DNA from: a virus
Direction: 5' to 3' (one strand)
DNA: 32,370 nt
IMG/VR virus record: IMGVR_UViG_3300007513_000119
Location: 1 to 32,370 of that record
Shown here in pieces: positions 249 to 19,499 of this stretch (position 1 is the stretch's first letter; each line of letters starts with the position of its first letter). A program made the position numbers and the translations under genes. The notes beneath the pieces were generated by a model, which saw only the letters and a list, made by a program, of their open reading frames with translations, was not told the DNA's origin and made no database searches.

Positions 249-487
249 TATTCTACACCACCCACCCTATGAACTATATGTCTACCATCTTTTCTGATTT
301 TCTTTTTTGGGGATTTATATACACCTGCTTTAGCTAGTGTTGATAATCTATCCCTTTTAGCAAACTTTTCAGGGTATTTAATAGTCGCACACGTAACACA
401 CATATTAAATTCACTCCAACATCTTCTAGTATTAGGGTTTTGATTTGGTTTTTTAAATACATTCCCACATTCTTTACATCTCATCAT
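248..487 (-). CDS. Small zinc-ribbon protein (79 aa)
   Basis: This is a 79-residue basic protein with CxxC at residues 4-7 (RCKECG), Cys23 and CVTC at 30-33, which fits one zinc-binding ribbon. The C-terminal half is rich in Lys and Arg, so nucleic-acid binding is possible but inferred. The start is one of two tandem ATGs (487 or 484) that overlap the stop of the AAA+ ATPase gene as ATGATGA. The stop overlaps the next gene's start. It could be a small transcription regulator or adaptor; nothing in the sequence proves a role. Confidence 0.7.
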   Translation of the reverse strand: MMRCKECGNVFKKPNQNPNTRRCWSEFNMCVTCATIKYPEKFAKRDRLSTLAKAGVYKSPKKKIRKDGRHIVHRVGGVE

Positions 488-1371
488 ATATTCACTCCAA
501 ACGTTTCATTTATTCTTATCCTTACCTGTTCTCTTTCCTGTGAATCACTATACTTGATTAGTATCACATTGTTTAACACATCTTCTAACTTCCATGTAGA
601 TATATATGTTCTATATACATCACAAAATTGGTCTATATCTCTTGGAGAGAATATATAATCAACCTGACCTTTATTCCTTAACCCAACTATCTGCTGACAT
701 AGTGTTAGTAGGCAATCCCTAGTTTCATCAGGTATATCTGACCAATCTATTAACTTAAGCAATTCAGTTGTCGAGGGATATGGTAATACCTTTCCTATAA
801 ACCTAGACCTAATTGATTCTGTTAGAGTATTAACACCACCATAATTAATAGGATTGATTGTTGCTACGAATGTTATCTTTACACCATCATCTAATCTAAA
901 TTCTCTACCATTTGCATATACTGAACGTCTTTTATCTAGTGGTTTATTAAACCTTATCTGCTCATCATGTGGTAATACATTAAACTCATCAAGATAGAAT
1001 ACTAAATTCTTCCAATGGTTTGCTAACTCAAATGCTTTAGGAAGAAATCCCATCTCAAAATATGATCCATCATTGTCTATTTGTGGGCGACCTATTATAT
1101 CTCCCTTATTCATACCAGCTCCACAACTCATTTCAAATAAAGGTATGTTATTTTTTCTGCATATATCATATACTAATAATGTTTTACCTGTTCCTTTTTC
1201 TCCCTCTAATAAAACATTATGCTTACCTGTTAATATCAAATCTGTTATTTCTTTTTTCTCCCCCCTGTTATCGATATAATCTCCCCAATTTACAATGTTA
1301 GCAGGATTAACTTGCTCATAATCCATGTATGCAAATGGAATACTCTTTTCCTTAATCTGTCCTTTAAGCAT
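484..1371 (-). CDS. MoxR/CbbQ-type AAA+ ATPase
   Basis: This 295-residue protein is a single AAA+ module. Walker A is GEKGTGKT (57-64), Walker B ends LVFYLDE (123-129), sensor 1 is ATINP (170-174), and an arginine-finger-like SIRSRF lies at 187-191. The GDIIGRP segment at about 90-96 and the NP after sensor 1 are typical of the MoxR/CbbQ/CobS branch, whose members remodel or activate partner proteins, usually with a von Willebrand A protein. No VWA partner is encoded in this window. Phages often carry CobS/CbbQ-like ATPases of unknown role. The gene is coupled to small zinc-ribbon genes on both sides: its start overlaps the end of the 47-aa gene by 8 bases. Confidence 0.88.
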   Translation of the reverse strand: MLKGQIKEKSIPFAYMDYEQVNPANIVNWGDYIDNRGEKKEITDLILTGKHNVLLEGEKGTGKTLLVYDICRKNNIPLFEMSCGAGMNKGDIIGRPQIDNDGSYFEMGFLPKAFELANHWKNLVFYLDEFNVLPHDEQIRFNKPLDKRRSVYANGREFRLDDGVKITFVATINPINYGGVNTLTESIRSRFIGKVLPYPSTTELLKLIDWSDIPDETRDCLLTLCQQIVGLRNKGQVDYIFSPRDIDQFCDVYRTYISTWKLEDVLNNVILIKYSDSQEREQVRIRINETFGVNI

Positions 1372-3868: not shown

Positions 3869-4621
3869 CTATACACCATACATCTCATCATCTAATCTTG
3901 ATTGTTTAAGTAATGCTTCTGCTTCTTTCTGTTTCTTTCTTAATTCTCTATCCTTTTGTTTAACTTCATCTGTTATACATCTCTTTAAATCAGCAGGTAA
4001 TTGATTCATGAATACTCTATCTTTTATGTTAGGTTTAAGACAGAAACCTATCTTAACCATGATAGTTTGTAGTAGTCTTGACATTCTTATAGCTCCAACA
4101 GCAGTATCAATTAACTTATCTCTTATGTAGCCATCAACTACAAGACATAAGCTATGCCAACCTTTACCTTTCTTATAATGAGCTCCACCATCATAGCCTA
4201 CCATAAAGTTATCATCAATTACTATGCCACGTTTCCTAAACTTTAATCTATCTGCATAAGCAAACAACAGTTTCATTAGTAATTCTTTACAGTTAATAAC
4301 TTGATACTTATCCCCACAGTATTTCATAAAGGAAGCACAATCATCATTGTTTATGAACTGACATATCTTATTAGCTTCTTCTTGTCTTGTTTGTAGTATC
4401 ACACCACTAAACATAAGATTAAATATTTTATCATTGTATGTTTCCTGTATCTTTTGTGTCCTAGTATAGAAGTGAAAGATTCTATTATCATTATCTCTTT
4501 TATCTATGTTAGCAGGATCATATTTAAGATGATAGTATTCATCATTAGATACCATCTCAATCTTACCATCATCATTCATTATAGTTAGATGATTATCATT
4601 ACAATCTAATATCTTAGGCAT
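3869..4621 (-). CDS. Hypothetical protein downstream of GHKL ATPase (250 aa)
   Basis: This 250-residue mixed alpha/beta protein starts MPKILDCNDNHLTIMNDDGK and ends in a charged helix (about residues 205-245) that looks like a coiled coil. Its start overlaps the end of the GHKL ATPase gene by 8 bases, so the two are likely co-translated. In many phages an rIIA-like GHKL protein is followed by an rIIB protein, and the position would fit. I see no helix-turn-helix or other sequence likeness to rIIB, so that is only a positional suggestion. Confidence 0.7.
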   Translation of the reverse strand: MPKILDCNDNHLTIMNDDGKIEMVSNDEYYHLKYDPANIDKRDNDNRIFHFYTRTQKIQETYNDKIFNLMFSGVILQTRQEEANKICQFINNDDCASFMKYCGDKYQVINCKELLMKLLFAYADRLKFRKRGIVIDDNFMVGYDGGAHYKKGKGWHSLCLVVDGYIRDKLIDTAVGAIRMSRLLQTIMVKIGFCLKPNIKDRVFMNQLPADLKRCITDEVKQKDRELRKKQKEAEALLKQSRLDDEMYGV

Positions 4622-7088
4622 GGTATAACTCCTTTACTCTTTTAACTTCATCACTTAACTCCTTGAATGTATTAGCATAAGTTAATGACCTAGCTACATC
4701 ATTAAAGAATTTACTTGGTATTGATCTATGTAGATCAACCAATGCTAATATCATACAACCTTTATGCTCAGCATTTTTCCATCTTGATATAAACCTATTA
4801 CTACTTAATAACTCTATCACTTCATCAGGTATTAATACTTTCATCTTCTCATCTATATTAACAGAATCACTACCATATCTATCTATCTCTATTATGTCCT
4901 TATCATTATAGTTAATAGTCCAATCCTTGTCATGTATATATCCATCAGTTATAAATGCTAATCCTAATCCAATTAACTCATCATTATTCTTAGCACATAT
5001 GTATAATTGTTTCTTGTTAGTGCCAAAACATTTCTCATTAATCACATCAGAATAAGGATAATAAACTAACTTAACTTCAAGCTCATCTGTATCTCTAAAC
5101 TTATCTAACAATTCATTCATCTTATAATTACCCTGACTTGTAAAGACATTCCTATTCATCACACCTTTAATATAATCATCAACCGAGTTAGCATTTAAAT
5201 CTGTATCTGCTTTACAAAACATTATATCTGTTGGTATTTGATTTAACAAACCTACTATATCAGCAATAGACAATCTGTGTTTCCCCCATCTCTTTTCTGT
5301 AAGCTGTAGCCTGATCTTTTTTTTTGCTATTATATCCTTCATACTATAATCATCATGTCTATTCTTATCATAATATATACTAGAGCTGACCTGTGTTTCA
5401 TCATAAGAATAGTTGCTAAGCTTATTGTAATGCCATACTATACTACCTTTCGGTCTAGCTACTCGTCTTATCTTTATCTTAACCTTTCTATTCTTTAACC
5501 AACTAACAGTATCATAGAAATACATATCATCTTTATCACATAACTTATTCATCTTCTCAACTAGATAGTTTAATGTATCAACATATTTATCAGTATCTTT
5601 ATAGGCTAATCTTATATAAGTGCAGGTTTCCCCTAGCTCCTCATCAATACCAACTATCTTATCCCTATAAAAGTTAGACATATAAAATACATGATCATAA
5701 TTAATAGCATGACTAGATGATTGAGTTAATAACTCTAAGAATGTTATGTGATCATACTTCTTTCTGTTATCCTTATAGATATTAAATCTTAAATCAATAC
5801 ATTCTTTTAATTGTTTTTTATCTTCATCATCATCATCATTCCTATCTTCTGAATATTGATACAACCAATGCCATGTATTAATATCCTGTGAAGTCATATT
5901 AAATAACTCATCTAACTTATTAATTCTATTCTCATCATACCATTCACAAACTAAATCATAACTATCTCTTAACATCTCATCAGTTAGCCAACCATCTTTA
6001 AGACTATCTCTACTAGCAACAGGTGGATAGATTGATTCATCTTTAAGGTTGATTAACATACCTGTGAAGTTAGGAAACCTAGACAGTAATCCATTAAGCT
6101 CAAGATCATTTATCTTACTAGAAATAGTGCTACCCTTATTATATTCATTGTTAATTGGAACATCTATTAACGTAGTAAAGAAATGACAATCATCATTAAC
6201 ATCAGCATTACTATTACTATTGTTAGCAAACAGAATAGTAATATCATAAGTATCATTATCTATATGTAATGTCTTAGTTGTTGAATGATCTATATTAGTA
6301 TAAGAATATCTTTCTCTTTCATTAGCCCTATCTATTAGTCTTAACATATATCTTTCTTTATCTAATAACTCTACTTCATGGTTGCCAATACTATAATCAT
6401 CATCATCATCAACTTCATCTTCTAAATGTATGGTAGTAGGAATACCATGTAATGATACTACATCTTTAACTCTTTCTATTAATTGTTTATAGAATTTAGT
6501 ATCGCCTAAATCTTTATTCAATACCATAGTTAATTTACAACCATAAGGTATGTTAGTTGCTTCTTCTAATGGTAGCCATGTCTTACCATCTCTACCTAAT
6601 ACTGTAAAGTTTTCAGGCGATTCTCTTGGATTAGATTCTATCTTTAACGTGCTACTTAATGTAGTATAAGCTTCAATACCCATGCCAAACATACCAATAC
6701 TATTCCTATCTTTATTATGTGATCGACCTAGCCATGCTACTATCTTACCGAATCGTTCAGCAGTTATACCTAATGAATCATAGCCTTGTATAATTAATTT
6801 TCTTTCAACAGGATTGATTGTTATTACCATGTAAGGATTAGCATTGAAGTTATCCCTAGCTAATTTACAAGCCTTTAATTCATTAGTTAATAATTCTCTT
6901 ATGCCTGACAACCATGAAGTATAGATAGTATTAGCTACCCTTTCTACTATAACATCATGCTCTAACTTAACCTTGATTGATCCATCTTCACTATCAATAA
7001 ACTCTTTCAAAGCTCCTGTATATTTACCAACATCATTAGATATATCCTTAGGCTTCTTTACATCAGGTATATAATAATCATCTGTCAT
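4614..7088 (-). CDS. GHKL (Hsp90/rIIA-like) ATPase
   Basis: The first 200 residues of this 824-aa protein form a Bergerat-fold ATP site. The N-box is RELLTNELKA (64-73, with Glu65 and Asn69), a G1-like box is YDSLGI (103-108), and the G2 box is IGMFGMGIEAY (131-141). Proteins of this fold include Hsp90, MutL, MORC, type II topoisomerase B subunits and the phage T4 rIIA protein. Length and viral context make an rIIA-like protein the nearest guess; T4 rIIA is of similar size and counters a prophage exclusion system. The other 600 residues are Asp/Asn/Tyr-rich with no domain I know. The G1 box lacks the first Gly of the usual DxGxG. The start overlaps the 65-aa gene as ATGA. Confidence 0.82.
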   Translation of the reverse strand: MTDDYYIPDVKKPKDISNDVGKYTGALKEFIDSEDGSIKVKLEHDVIVERVANTIYTSWLSGIRELLTNELKACKLARDNFNANPYMVITINPVERKLIIQGYDSLGITAERFGKIVAWLGRSHNKDRNSIGMFGMGIEAYTTLSSTLKIESNPRESPENFTVLGRDGKTWLPLEEATNIPYGCKLTMVLNKDLGDTKFYKQLIERVKDVVSLHGIPTTIHLEDEVDDDDDYSIGNHEVELLDKERYMLRLIDRANERERYSYTNIDHSTTKTLHIDNDTYDITILFANNSNSNADVNDDCHFFTTLIDVPINNEYNKGSTISSKINDLELNGLLSRFPNFTGMLINLKDESIYPPVASRDSLKDGWLTDEMLRDSYDLVCEWYDENRINKLDELFNMTSQDINTWHWLYQYSEDRNDDDDEDKKQLKECIDLRFNIYKDNRKKYDHITFLELLTQSSSHAINYDHVFYMSNFYRDKIVGIDEELGETCTYIRLAYKDTDKYVDTLNYLVEKMNKLCDKDDMYFYDTVSWLKNRKVKIKIRRVARPKGSIVWHYNKLSNYSYDETQVSSSIYYDKNRHDDYSMKDIIAKKKIRLQLTEKRWGKHRLSIADIVGLLNQIPTDIMFCKADTDLNANSVDDYIKGVMNRNVFTSQGNYKMNELLDKFRDTDELEVKLVYYPYSDVINEKCFGTNKKQLYICAKNNDELIGLGLAFITDGYIHDKDWTINYNDKDIIEIDRYGSDSVNIDEKMKVLIPDEVIELLSSNRFISRWKNAEHKGCMILALVDLHRSIPSKFFNDVARSLTYANTFKELSDEVKRVKELYHA

Positions 7089-7282
7089 AAGTCATAACAC
7101 TCCTGTAATCCTGTATTATATTCTTCAGCTCTTTCATTCATTAACTCATCAATATCTATCTCATCTATCACACATTGTATATCATTATGCCAACCTAATT
7201 TAGTATCAATAATATTATTCCATATCCATCTCTTTAATGGCTTCGCCATTACATTAGTCATAGAAAAAATGTAAGGGATCAT
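7085..7282 (-). CDS. Hypothetical protein (65 aa)
   Basis: The 65-residue product starts MIPYIFSMTNVMAKPLKRWI and has an acidic C-terminal half (DEIDIDELMNERAEEYNTG). The start overlaps the stop of the ubiquitin-like gene as ATGA and the stop overlaps the ATPase start as ATGA. The start codon sits in the loop of a predicted mRNA hairpin. It has no recognisable family. Its place between a ubiquitin-fold protein and a GHKL ATPase suggests a partner for one of them, but this is only context. Confidence 0.65.
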   Translation of the reverse strand: MIPYIFSMTNVMAKPLKRWIWNNIIDTKLGWHNDIQCVIDEIDIDELMNERAEEYNTGLQECYDL

Positions 7283-7584
7283 ATTGATCCCCCACTTACA
7301 ACAGGTAAAACGTATAGCTGATCGCTACCCTTAACGACAGTTTCCATACCATTTTGGAAAGCTATACTCTTACCATTCAGCATAACAGATAGGAACTTGT
7401 TAGGATCACCACGACTATCAAATAGTTTAGTGCGTAATGCCTTATCATCTATTTGTTCTAGGATAGATTGAACTGTTGATTTATCATCAACCTTTATTTC
7501 TATCTTCATGTCCTTACTACCTGTTATGGTATTGGGTATTTGTAATGTTGCTGTTTGATTCATTACTCTAATTTTGTCATTCAT
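7279..7584 (-). CDS. MoaD/ThiS-like ubiquitin-fold protein
   Basis: This 101-residue protein matches the beta-grasp pattern of MoaD, ThiS, Urm1 and archaeal SAMPs. A first strand pair covers TLQIPNTITGSKDMKIEIKV, a helix STVQSILEQI follows (about 36-45), then the conserved VMLNGKSIAF (67-76), a loop VKGSDQL (84-90) and the terminal YVLPVVSGG (91-99). Family members carry sulfur or are conjugated to lysines through a C-terminal Gly-Gly after activation by an E1-like enzyme. Here two residues (Ser-Ile) follow the Gly-Gly, so trimming would be needed. ATG 7584 overlaps the SWIM gene by 8 bases; a GTG at 7593 is an alternative. No E1 or JAB protease gene is visible, so host enzymes would have to serve. 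Confidence 0.82.
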   Translation of the reverse strand: MNDKIRVMNQTATLQIPNTITGSKDMKIEIKVDDKSTVQSILEQIDDKALRTKLFDSRGDPNKFLSVMLNGKSIAFQNGMETVVKGSDQLYVLPVVSGGSI

Positions 7585-8128
7585 TTTTCTCACTCACGCT
7601 TTTTTTGTTATCCACATATAAATCTTTGGAATTTTCTATGTCTTTATTATAGAATGATTTATAAATCTCTTGGATTTTATTACTAATATCTTCTCCTAAT
7701 GATTCAAATTCCCCTAGATATATAACACAGTCATTATGTATCATCATACTACCTGCCTTATTAATTAATATCTTCTTACCATCTTGATCATAAGCATTAA
7801 CTGATTCAATAGTATTATCTGTATAATCAGCGTTCTTTAATACTATATCGAGAAAAGGTGTTAGGCACATTATACAATAAGAATTATGCTCTATCACTCC
7901 CCTTATCTTATCTATATGCCAACACCTTTCTCTATGTTTATAGCCCAAACATTCACATTCAATATCTATACTAGTATCTGTATTGATATGGTCATCATCT
8001 ACTATCTTGACAACAATAGTATATACTATGTCATTATCAGATTTACTTTTAACTTGATAGAGATAACCATCATTAGTATTATTAATACCAATAAAGGCGT
8101 AATTCTGATCAGTATTTTCGGACATCAT
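7577..8128 (-). CDS. SWIM zinc-finger protein
   Basis: From ATG 8128 the 183-residue product carries a SWIM motif, Cys58-x-Cys60-x8-Cys69-x-His71 (ECECLGYKHRERCWHI), after a strand-rich segment (YQVKSKS, YTIVVK). A further CIMC lies at 85-88. SWIM domains bind DNA or proteins. The C-terminal half has beta strands and an acidic tail. The frame is open to ATG 8410 (277 aa), which also has a promoter element 25 bases upstream. I prefer 8128 because it is 25-26 bases from the TATA centre of the nearest element, the SWIM region is complete, and the 94-residue extension runs through repeated promoter elements. It is the first gene of the long leftward operon. Confidence 0.75.
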   Translation of the reverse strand: MMSENTDQNYAFIGINNTNDGYLYQVKSKSDNDIVYTIVVKIVDDDHINTDTSIDIECECLGYKHRERCWHIDKIRGVIEHNSYCIMCLTPFLDIVLKNADYTDNTIESVNAYDQDGKKILINKAGSMMIHNDCVIYLGEFESLGEDISNKIQEIYKSFYNKDIENSKDLYVDNKKSVSEKNE

Positions 8129-8146
8129 GGGCAAAAAATCACAAAT

Positions 8147-8174
8147 CCCTAATTTAAATGTATCGCTGATCGCA
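8147..8174 (-). promoter_or_regulatory. Promoter element copy 1, for SWIM gene start 8128
   Basis: The minus strand carries GCGATC, a purine-rich stretch and an ATTTAAATT box whose centre is about 25 bases before ATG 8128. This fits a leaderless transcript of the short SWIM protein. Confidence 0.6.
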
Positions 8175-8425
8175 TTTTTCGTGATTCGTTCAAAACTTTT
8201 TTGTGTTTTTTTCCGTAATTTAAATGTTTCCGTGATCGCACTTGATCGCTGTTCATTTACTACTATAATATAAGCATAACTAACACTATAAATAACAGTA
8301 TTGTTTAAGTAATTGGTATATAATCTTATTGTTTGTTTAATAGAACTAAGCTTATTAAGTGGTTTGCTACCTAATATAAACCTTTGTATAACATTTTTTT
8401 GATACAACATGAACGAAACATTAAG

Positions 8426-17628: not shown

Positions 17629-18279
17629 ATGACCGAAGAAGAAAATTCTAAACAAGCCGAAGAGAAAAAAGAAGATTCTGAAGACGAAAAAGAAGAAAGT
17701 CATGGAGAGGAAACTACTGAGGAATTACGCCAAGATGCTTCAAAAGCATTTTCGAAAGTAAAATCCAGTATTGATACTCTTACTGACGTTGTTCAATCAC
17801 TTGCTGAAACCCAAAAGGGTGTAAGCGAAACAATCGGAAAATTTGACTCGAGACTAAAGGCATTAGAAAAACCAACAGATTTACCACTGAAACCAGCAGG
17901 AAGTGCAGGTTCAGATAATGATGTAGGTGCTGATGTCAAAGTACCAGATACCTATCAGTCAAACTCAAGACAAGTTGGTCTTGACTCTGACCGAAAAGAA
18001 GTAGATGGTGCAAAGAAACCTCAAGCAGATCAAGGAAAACTTTCCATGCAAGAAAAGTCCGAAGAATTAACTTCAATTCAAAAGTCTGAGCATACTTTCT
18101 CAACCGAGACACCAAGACCAAGTGCAGCACTAGAGAACGTTGACAAATCCATGGGGGATTTCTCACCAATTCTTAAAGATGCACGAAGTAATGGATTCGA
18201 AGGTTTGAGCAATGTTGCACGAGATATCTTGAACGGAAAATACTACAAACCAACACCTGAAGAGGTCGGACAGTGGTAG
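17629..18279 (+). CDS. Probable scaffold-type head protein (216 aa)
   Basis: This very acidic protein starts MTEEENSKQAEEKKEDSEDE and contains a coiled-coil-like segment at about 45-90 (SKVKSSIDTLTDVVQSLAET) followed by a low-complexity Pro/Asp/Ser region. The composition, size and position directly before the capsid gene fit a scaffold. The frame is open to 17560, but that extension lies inside the protease gene, so ATG 17629 is preferred. The C-terminus (NGFEGLSNVARDILNGKYYK) is a conserved-looking helix that could bind capsid. The end overlaps the capsid gene start (GTG 18273). Confidence 0.68.
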   Translation: MTEEENSKQAEEKKEDSEDEKEESHGEETTEELRQDASKAFSKVKSSIDTLTDVVQSLAETQKGVSETIGKFDSRLKALEKPTDLPLKPAGSAGSDNDVGADVKVPDTYQSNSRQVGLDSDRKEVDGAKKPQADQGKLSMQEKSEELTSIQKSEHTFSTETPRPSAALENVDKSMGDFSPILKDARSNGFEGLSNVARDILNGKYYKPTPEEVGQW

Positions 18280-19499
18280 ATATGGTTCAGATAAAGACTA
18301 TTGATGAATTAGAAGCACTCTATTACGGATACAATAGAAACCTCCTACGAAAAGCAGATGCACCAGCAACTACTTCCACAGCAGGCGTTTTTAACGCAAT
18401 CTATGGAGCATATGCATGGGCACAGCTCAACCTTGAAGCCAATGCCTTTGGTATCTTACCAAAGTACCCTTGGGATAAATCAGGATGGAGGGTTATTACT
18501 GCAAAACCAGTGCTAAATACAACCAATGGTAATACTACTCTTGGTGGTACAGCAGAAGGTGGACTCATTGCTGAGACAGTAAAACCAACACTACAAGAAA
18601 TTGATGTTAGACCAAAGACAGCACAACTGCCTTTCTCAGCATCAGAAGTTATGGAGTGGTTGGCTACACACAGCAAAGACGACATTTGGGGTGGACTTGG
18701 TTCACTTCGATTGTATATGGCAGTACAACACAAAGAATTCCTAAATAGAATGCTCTTAGCCGATGTTGAAGGAACCATATCTGGTTCTGGAACAAATGCT
18801 GGCACCACAGATTGGGAGTCATTAGACCGAATTGTTTCATCCAACGCAGAAGAAACTGCATTAGGTGCATCAACTACTGGTTCATACGATCCATGGGCAG
18901 CAAATGCAACTATTGACAGAGACAGCTCAAGTGATTTTGACTGTACTGTTGAGTCAGCATCAGGAACTATTGGCACAAACGGAGTACTAACAGACGATAC
19001 ATTAAGAACTTTCTTACGAAAGATTCGTATTGCTGCTGGTAAAGATCCAAACGTATTCTTAGGTTCACACGAGGTCTATTCCGAAATTCAAGGACTATAT
19101 ATGCCTTCTGTCAGGATTCCAAATCCTTACGGAGAAGCATTGGTGCAAATCGATGTTAATGGTATACAAACCTTTAGAGGTACAGGAGTAGGTATTCATG
19201 TGGACAGCATTTACGGAATACCATTCATCCCATCAAAGGATGCACCAAGCGACTCTGGCGATGCCAGTGAAATTGGTAGACTATTTGCATTTGATACATC
19301 AGATGCAGAAGGATATGGTTATCCAAGAATTGGAATACAAATTGCAATCCCAACGGAATACTACGAAGCAACTCGTAGAAGTCCAGCATACCCATTCGTC
19401 AACAACGCATTTGTTGAGAAAGGTGTATTCAGAACTATGGGAGAAACTGTTTGTCGTCACTTCAAATCTCAAGGCAAGATTAGAGATATAAAACTCTAG
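18273..19499 (+). CDS. Major capsid protein, HK97 fold
   Basis: This 408-residue protein is the likely shell subunit. It follows portal, protease and scaffold and has the look of phage HK97-fold capsids: a Gly/Ala/Thr-rich E-loop-like region (TTNGNTTLGGTAEGG, 84-98), AQLPFSASEVMEWLA (117-131) at the spine helix start, and LRTFLRKIRIAAGKDPNVFLGSHEVYSEI in the P-domain. The start is uncertain: GTG 18273 has GAGGT six bases upstream and overlaps the scaffold stop (GTGGTAG), while ATG 18282 lies two bases after that stop. The coding sequence is less A/T-rich than its neighbours, as expected for a highly expressed gene. A strong poly-T run follows. Confidence 0.85.
   Translation: MVDMVQIKTIDELEALYYGYNRNLLRKADAPATTSTAGVFNAIYGAYAWAQLNLEANAFGILPKYPWDKSGWRVITAKPVLNTTNGNTTLGGTAEGGLIAETVKPTLQEIDVRPKTAQLPFSASEVMEWLATHSKDDIWGGLGSLRLYMAVQHKEFLNRMLLADVEGTISGSGTNAGTTDWESLDRIVSSNAEETALGASTTGSYDPWAANATIDRDSSSDFDCTVESASGTIGTNGVLTDDTLRTFLRKIRIAAGKDPNVFLGSHEVYSEIQGLYMPSVRIPNPYGEALVQIDVNGIQTFRGTGVGIHVDSIYGIPFIPSKDAPSDSGDASEIGRLFAFDTSDAEGYGYPRIGIQIAIPTEYYEATRRSPAYPFVNNAFVEKGVFRTMGETVCRHFKSQGKIRDIKL

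Follow-up and report, generated by a model that had tools for sequence, protein, structure and literature searches.

The closest described counterparts of the gene reported here are SAMP1 and archaeal MoaD (structure 3po0; family models NF041918 and TIGR01687). Some ThiS-like carriers extend past the Gly-Gly: PtmS2, which ends GG-MV, is a bacterial sulfur carrier capped by two residues and served by the JAMM protease PtmS1, and QbsD is the model JAMM protease, processing the thioquinolobactin carrier (PMC6006322). In archaea, Rpn11 and JAMM proteases cut back the precursors of ubiquitin and SAMP (PMC6043591), and Thaumarchaeota encode fusions of ubiquitin-like and E1 proteins (PMC2948915). Among viruses, lambda/T1 TAPI and the ubiquitin-like domain of tail protein J have beta-grasp folds related to ThiS/MoaD, and TAPI genes adjoin the gene for the JAB/NlpC protein K (PMC1779556). 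rIIA-type proteins, which in T4 combine a GHKL domain with a variable C-terminus, are regarded as counter-defence factors, and their role is poorly understood (PMC7824862).

Here we analyse a gene for a ubiquitin-like protein (Ubl) on 32,370 nucleotides of viral DNA, referred to as the window (positions 1 to 32,370 of IMG/VR record IMGVR_UViG_3300007513_000119). The product resembles SAMP1 and archaeal MoaD in its predicted beta-grasp fold, its P-x-V-[SA]-G-G sequence and its length, and SAMP1 is its best fold match; it differs in scoring below the curated cut-offs, in carrying Ser-Ile after the Gly-Gly and in being encoded by a virus, one in which we found no E1 gene. It shares with the capped carriers the residues past the Gly-Gly (two in PtmS2), but the PtmS2 and QbsD systems are bacterial and biosynthetic and have their own JAMM protease, of which none was found in the present virus records. 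In Caldiarchaeum the Gly-Gly of archaeal ubiquitin and SAMP precursors is uncovered by metalloproteases (CsRpn11, CsJAMM; PMC6043591), much as is proposed here, but that case is cellular, with a nine-residue tail on the ubiquitin and a full ubiquitin operon. The window protein is, like TAPI and the tail protein J domain, a viral protein with a predicted ThiS/MoaD-related beta-grasp. Unlike TAPI, it is encoded in a separate minus-strand block with neither tail genes nor a JAB gene, and its position away from tail genes agrees with a preliminary description made from the sequence alone. The neighbouring ATPase recalls rIIA in its N-terminal GHKL motifs and variable remainder (PMC7824862), but is tied to a Gly-Gly-tailed protein and to a third protein, p250. 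The protein belongs to a known class, the MoaD/SAMP-type ubiquitin-like proteins, but its setting, an archaeal virus cassette, is new; full-text literature searches did not bring up any archaeal virus described as having a SAMP-like protein. Our main result is that this cassette is conserved across a marine group of archaeal tailed viruses, with the Gly-Gly end present in seven lineages.

Results

Features of the window used below are as follows.

484..1371, minus strand: AAA_5 ATPase by family match, MoxR-like by context; its vWA partner lies outside the window, in contig G001
2089..2979, minus strand: GP88-family protein (PF17338; Pfam match), in the same minus-strand block
3869..4621, minus strand: p250, a 250-aa protein without assigned function, cassette gene 3 (homologues in the other cassettes)
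4614..7088, minus strand: 824-aa GHKL-type ATPase (Hsp90/rIIA-like), cassette gene 2 (motifs RELLTNELKA, DSLGI and GMFGMG, and homologues)
7085..7282, minus strand: 65-aa ORF between the Ubl and ATPase genes, no match in family searches
7279..7584, minus strand: ubiquitin-like (ThiS/MoaD/SAMP-type) gene, 101 aa (ORF, Pfam, NCBIfam, phmmer, AlphaFold, Foldseek)
7293-7282, minus strand: G-G-S-I codons of the Ubl gene, followed by its stop codon at 7281-7279
7282..7293, minus strand: within this stretch the Ser-Ile codons overlap the region where the next gene starts, the TGA stop overlapping the next ATG as ATGA
7577..8410, minus strand: 277-aa protein encoded ahead of the Ubl gene; its C-x-C...C-x-H stretch is SWIM zinc finger-like by sequence, and PHROG gave a weak zinc-finger match
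18273..19499, plus strand: major capsid protein, used to place the cassette contigs in one virus group

The major capsid protein shares about 26% identity with those of the haloarchaeal tailed viruses HCTV-1 and HVTV-1, and contig G001, of the same species as the window, adds archaeal-type MCM and RadA genes; both bear out an archaeal-type virus. G+C content is 30-37%. We call the source a marine archaeal tailed virus. A search for the host marker amoC gave no match, as did its control. Capsid relatives in the viral collection comprised 340 candidate stretches, the best 80 of the 340 being 89-100% identical.

Translation from the ATG at 7584 gives the 101-aa product (104 aa from an alternative GTG at 7593), and VMLNGKSIAF, LPVVSGG and the Ser-Ile tail of the preliminary description were all confirmed, the strand being minus. 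Two further contigs of the species encode an identical protein (three contigs in all). The Pfam ThiS family PF02597 matched at E = 3.2e-8 (34.4 bits; cut-off 22.5), so the ORF is not a chance product. The NCBIfam SAMP1 model NF041918 gave E = 9e-12, but its 45.3 bits fall short of the equivalog cut-off, 60; the moaD_arch model reached 35.6 bits where 49.5 are required. Solved ThiS/MoaD and SAMP1 chains were the phmmer matches. An AlphaFold model, with three cellular homologues included in its input, was a beta-grasp of order beta-beta-alpha-beta-beta-beta (pLDDT 81.6; residues 97-101, the C-terminal tail, at low confidence), and Foldseek ranked Haloferax volcanii SAMP1 first (3po0; E = 1.2e-6, TM 0.70/0.78), ahead of MoaD-, CysO- and Urm1-type proteins; TM reached 0.80 among the top SAMP1, MoaD and Urm1 matches. 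These results confirm, at the level of sequence and model, a MoaD/ThiS/SAMP-type ubiquitin-like protein with a predicted beta-grasp, as the preliminary description had held; a fold other than beta-grasp, which it had named as counting against it, was not obtained.

The nearest cellular MoaD-like proteins are 33-37% identical to the window protein; the IAF motif common to these matches is partly a product of the query, which was composed with IAF, and was not used as evidence. In a search of a viral fold library, domains of tail protein J and ubiquitins of giant viruses came up, and none of the best matches was a SAMP- or MoaD-named protein of a prokaryotic virus. We found no relative among 50,697 phage records, and a two-row alignment query for Ubl relatives recovered the same species only. 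Across 47 capsid-related records, PF02597 matched only the three contigs of the window species, with identical proteins. By sequence search alone the gene would thus look like a lone acquisition, and this was our first reading; it was set aside once synteny revealed Gly-Gly-ended genes in relatives.

The cassette runs, in order, Ubl gene, 65-aa ORF (in the window), 824-aa GHKL ATPase and p250. Further loci were located by a profile-guided search with the ATPase, and all five other loci whose upstream side was present carried a small Gly-Gly-tailed ORF upstream, either directly before the ATPase gene or one small ORF away; the homologue G038 begins at a contig edge and was left out of this count. 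A search with p250, run as a test after the Gly-Gly pattern had been noticed, yielded a single new contig (L157), which also carries the ATPase and p250. The C-terminal ends are as follows.

L127: GIPTVSGG, free
L128: GIPAVAGG, free
L129: GIPVVSGG, free
L130: GFPAISGGSI, capped
L132: GIPAVSGG, free
L157: RLPAVSGG, free (113-aa upstream ORF)
Window: LPVVSGG followed by Ser-Ile, capped

Thus, every other virus with an intact upstream side (6/6) has a protein ending P-x-[VI]-[SA]-G-G, five exactly at Gly-Gly and one with Gly-Gly-Ser-Ile. We checked 2173 distinct viral ORFs (60-160 aa) for this motif followed by at most two residues: seven have it (0.008 expected from composition), all of them in cassettes and none elsewhere in the viral loci fetched. 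Four 57-61 kb relatives that have neither the ATPase nor p250 (G011, G017, G024, G027) encode no such Gly-Gly-tailed protein. In all cassettes seen, p250 and the GHKL gene occur together; the slot of the 65-aa ORF holds a different small cysteine-rich ORF in several relatives and nothing in others. Of the other six contigs with a cassette, five have the capsid protein, at 73-90% identity; the L130 contig, which may be a fragment, had no capsid match. Homologues without the Gly-Gly, the other outcome that the preliminary description had set against itself, did not appear among the syntenic relatives. As for its question whether homologues keep both the Gly-Gly and the short tail, the former is kept in all six and the latter only in L130.

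The safest statement is that position and Gly-Gly end are conserved among the window gene and its relatives. A common fold is plausible, and the six relatives are putative homologues of the window protein. Three relatives share 45-54% identity with the L128 protein, the L130 protein is linked to this set more weakly (35%), and the L157 protein holds a MoaD-like stretch (VVVNVNGKPMF...LVPAGSHFVRD...LWRLPAVSGG). The protein bodies of window and relatives align poorly, and in a profile comparison only about the last 20 columns aligned (probability 53%). None of the six matched Pfam or PDB sequences, nor, L157 aside, PHROGs; the L128 AlphaFold model was poor (pLDDT 53), and at such low confidence the Foldseek matches of the relatives are not meaningful. 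A pattern-guided scan of a cellular genome collection (84,980 species) found no relatives of the Gly-Gly family. We noted two adjacent MoaD/ThiS-like ORFs on a Freyarchaeota MAG contig (L145:5001-5560), ending ...PPAAGG and ...LPRIAGG.

Exposed Gly-Gly appears to be the usual form of the group, and the cap not to be a family trait. The strictly terminal Gly-Gly of ThiS/MoaD is departed from in the window and L130 proteins, where two residues follow. The capped end described for the window protein is real, but a masked Gly-Gly does not extend to the group at large, since five of six relatives terminate exactly in Gly-Gly. In the window, GGGGGATCAATATGA could double as the ribosome-binding region of the next gene, and Ser-Ile may be a by-product because its codons overlap that gene's start region. 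The same Ser-Ile in L130 is followed by a TAA stop, with the next start 34 nt past it, so there the cap is not a by-product of overlap. In the free-ended relatives the stop directly follows the Gly-Gly, with 13 nt or more before the next start codon, so their Gly-Gly is not a disguised ribosome-binding site. We had considered p250 as a second capped protein, as four p250 proteins end with Gly-Gly plus three residues (L127:9538, L128:8936, L129:9059, L132:9047), and ruled this out: these codons are a ribosome-binding site of GGAGG type, belonging to a gene that overlaps or begins shortly after. Such p250 ends are a trap for Gly-Gly searches. The window Ubl gene has a similar overlap, but relatives that lack the overlap keep the Gly-Gly.

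The cassette ATPase has the conserved blocks RELxxNExxAC, DSLGI and GxFGMG, the N-box-like and G-box motifs of an N-terminal GHKL domain. It had no Pfam HATPase match and no match to PHROG rIIA, matching only PHROG families without known function or, in one case, a structural family weakly. The L127 homologue is a distant match to a protein of halovirus HGTV-1 annotated as HSP90 chaperone (KC292026.1 84276-85865; L152:4923-6512). HGTV-1 was ruled out as a cassette bearer, as neither p250 nor a Gly-Gly protein adjoins its GHKL gene. PADLOC gave no match for the Ubl, the ATPase or p250.

The minus-strand block (MoxR-like AAA, GP88, GHKL ATPase) runs opposite to the structural genes. This gene order is the one observation that agrees with the early-type operon of the preliminary description, and the block may be expressed early. 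SWIM-type zinc-finger proteins recur near the cassette (window 7577-8410, minus; L157:1994-2353; L128:10978-11388; L129:9624-9854), by Pfam match in L157 and by eye in the others, and are a possible fourth component. G001 encodes a MoxR-like AAA ATPase together with a vWA protein (L106:19125-20000 with L107:1-795); the ATPase gene is also present in the window (484-1371, minus), and a HExxH-like stretch (HECWH) precedes the G001 vWA protein. This layout is that of the MoxR-vWA-metallopeptidase pair of jumbo phages (PMC7824862), and the pair is probably a virion-assembly chaperone. G001 also encodes a secreted-looking matrixin-like metallopeptidase of this archaeal tailed virus (MTHEFGHALGLGH; L107:10068-10895).

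Discussion

The conserved cassette suggests that this virus group uses a ubiquitin-type tag or sulfur carrier, as opposed to an accidental pick-up. We consider it probable that the gene product is a virus-encoded ubiquitin-like protein of the MoaD/SAMP1/Urm1 kind that serves as modifier or sulfur carrier, activated by a host E1 and made together with the ATPase in host takeover. Neither ThiF/E1 nor Prok-JAB (PF14464) matched in nine virus records, several of them fragments, while the controls matched (for PF14464 in 11 of 14 genomes); activation and trimming would thus fall to host enzymes. The P-x-V-[SA]-G-G end would dock in a host E1-like enzyme of the MoeB/UbaA type and be adenylated, after which the Ubl would either be attached to lysine residues on proteins of the host or the virus, or be converted to a thiocarboxylate serving as sulfur donor. 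Either outcome may, along with the rIIA-like ATPase, help the virus to take over the host or to counter its defences. In the window virus a host JAMM protease would have to remove Ser-Ile beforehand, most relatives being already free-ended. A narrower version, which we hold only tentatively, is a viral SAMPylation cassette in which the Ubl tags proteins via the host E1 and acts with the GHKL ATPase and p250 in takeover or counter-defence, and in which the Ubl belongs to a fast-diverging family outside Pfam and PHROGs, recognisable mainly by P-x-V-S-G-G.

Because the window protein is recognisable by Pfam and 33-37% identical to cellular MoaD-like proteins, while its six relatives are without match and their bodies align poorly with it, one could suppose that a recently captured host MoaD replaced an unrelated small gene in one virus, the relatives' Gly-Gly ends being convergent. 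All share the cassette position and the P-x-[VI]-[SA]-G-G end, however, which makes this doubtful, and even so the replaced protein would have had the same kind of end, still arguing for shared function. The strict co-occurrence with GHKL ATPase and p250 in all seven cassettes with an intact upstream side, the confinement of the motif to them among the viral loci fetched and the lack of a viral E1 or JAB match would also fit a non-covalent partner, in which the Ubl and its tail bind the ATPase or p250 as subunit or adaptor, the tail fitting a pocket of its viral partner. We think this unlikely, given that the ending is the one cellular MoaD and SAMP use for E1 and sulfur chemistry, that it is more conserved than the remainder of the protein, and that the window protein is near enough to SAMP1 to gain a Pfam match.

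MoaD and ThiS were known first as sulfur carriers for thiamine and the molybdenum cofactor, and a role in archaeal tRNA modification has been proposed (PMC2948915), so the gene might simply supply sulfur for cofactors or tRNA as a routine auxiliary function outside takeover; but the family-matched neighbours are AAA, GP88 and GHKL proteins, none of them an enzyme of cofactor synthesis or tRNA modification, and with the conserved link to the ATPase cassette this appears decidedly unlikely. The preliminary description had also raised a decoy, in which the capped protein would fill a host E1 or MoaE-like partner unactivated and so block SAMPylation or sulfur transfer. The Ser-Ile shared by the window and L130 proteins agrees with this, as does the want of a JAB-kind protease in the virus records. 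The idea is weakened by the free Gly-Gly of five of six relatives, by the overlap of the window cap with the next gene's start and by bacterial capped carriers, which work after JAMM trimming (PMC6006322), leaving it the least probable of these accounts.

A conserved protein with a Gly-Gly tail, linked to an rIIA-like ATPase, would open to direct test whether a virus exploits ubiquitin-like conjugation in archaea, and the cassette would give a lead on the partners of rIIA-type proteins (PMC7824862). If the reading as a host-activated modifier or sulfur carrier is true, it would suggest that the hosts of these viruses have a SAMP pathway worth attacking or exploiting in infection.
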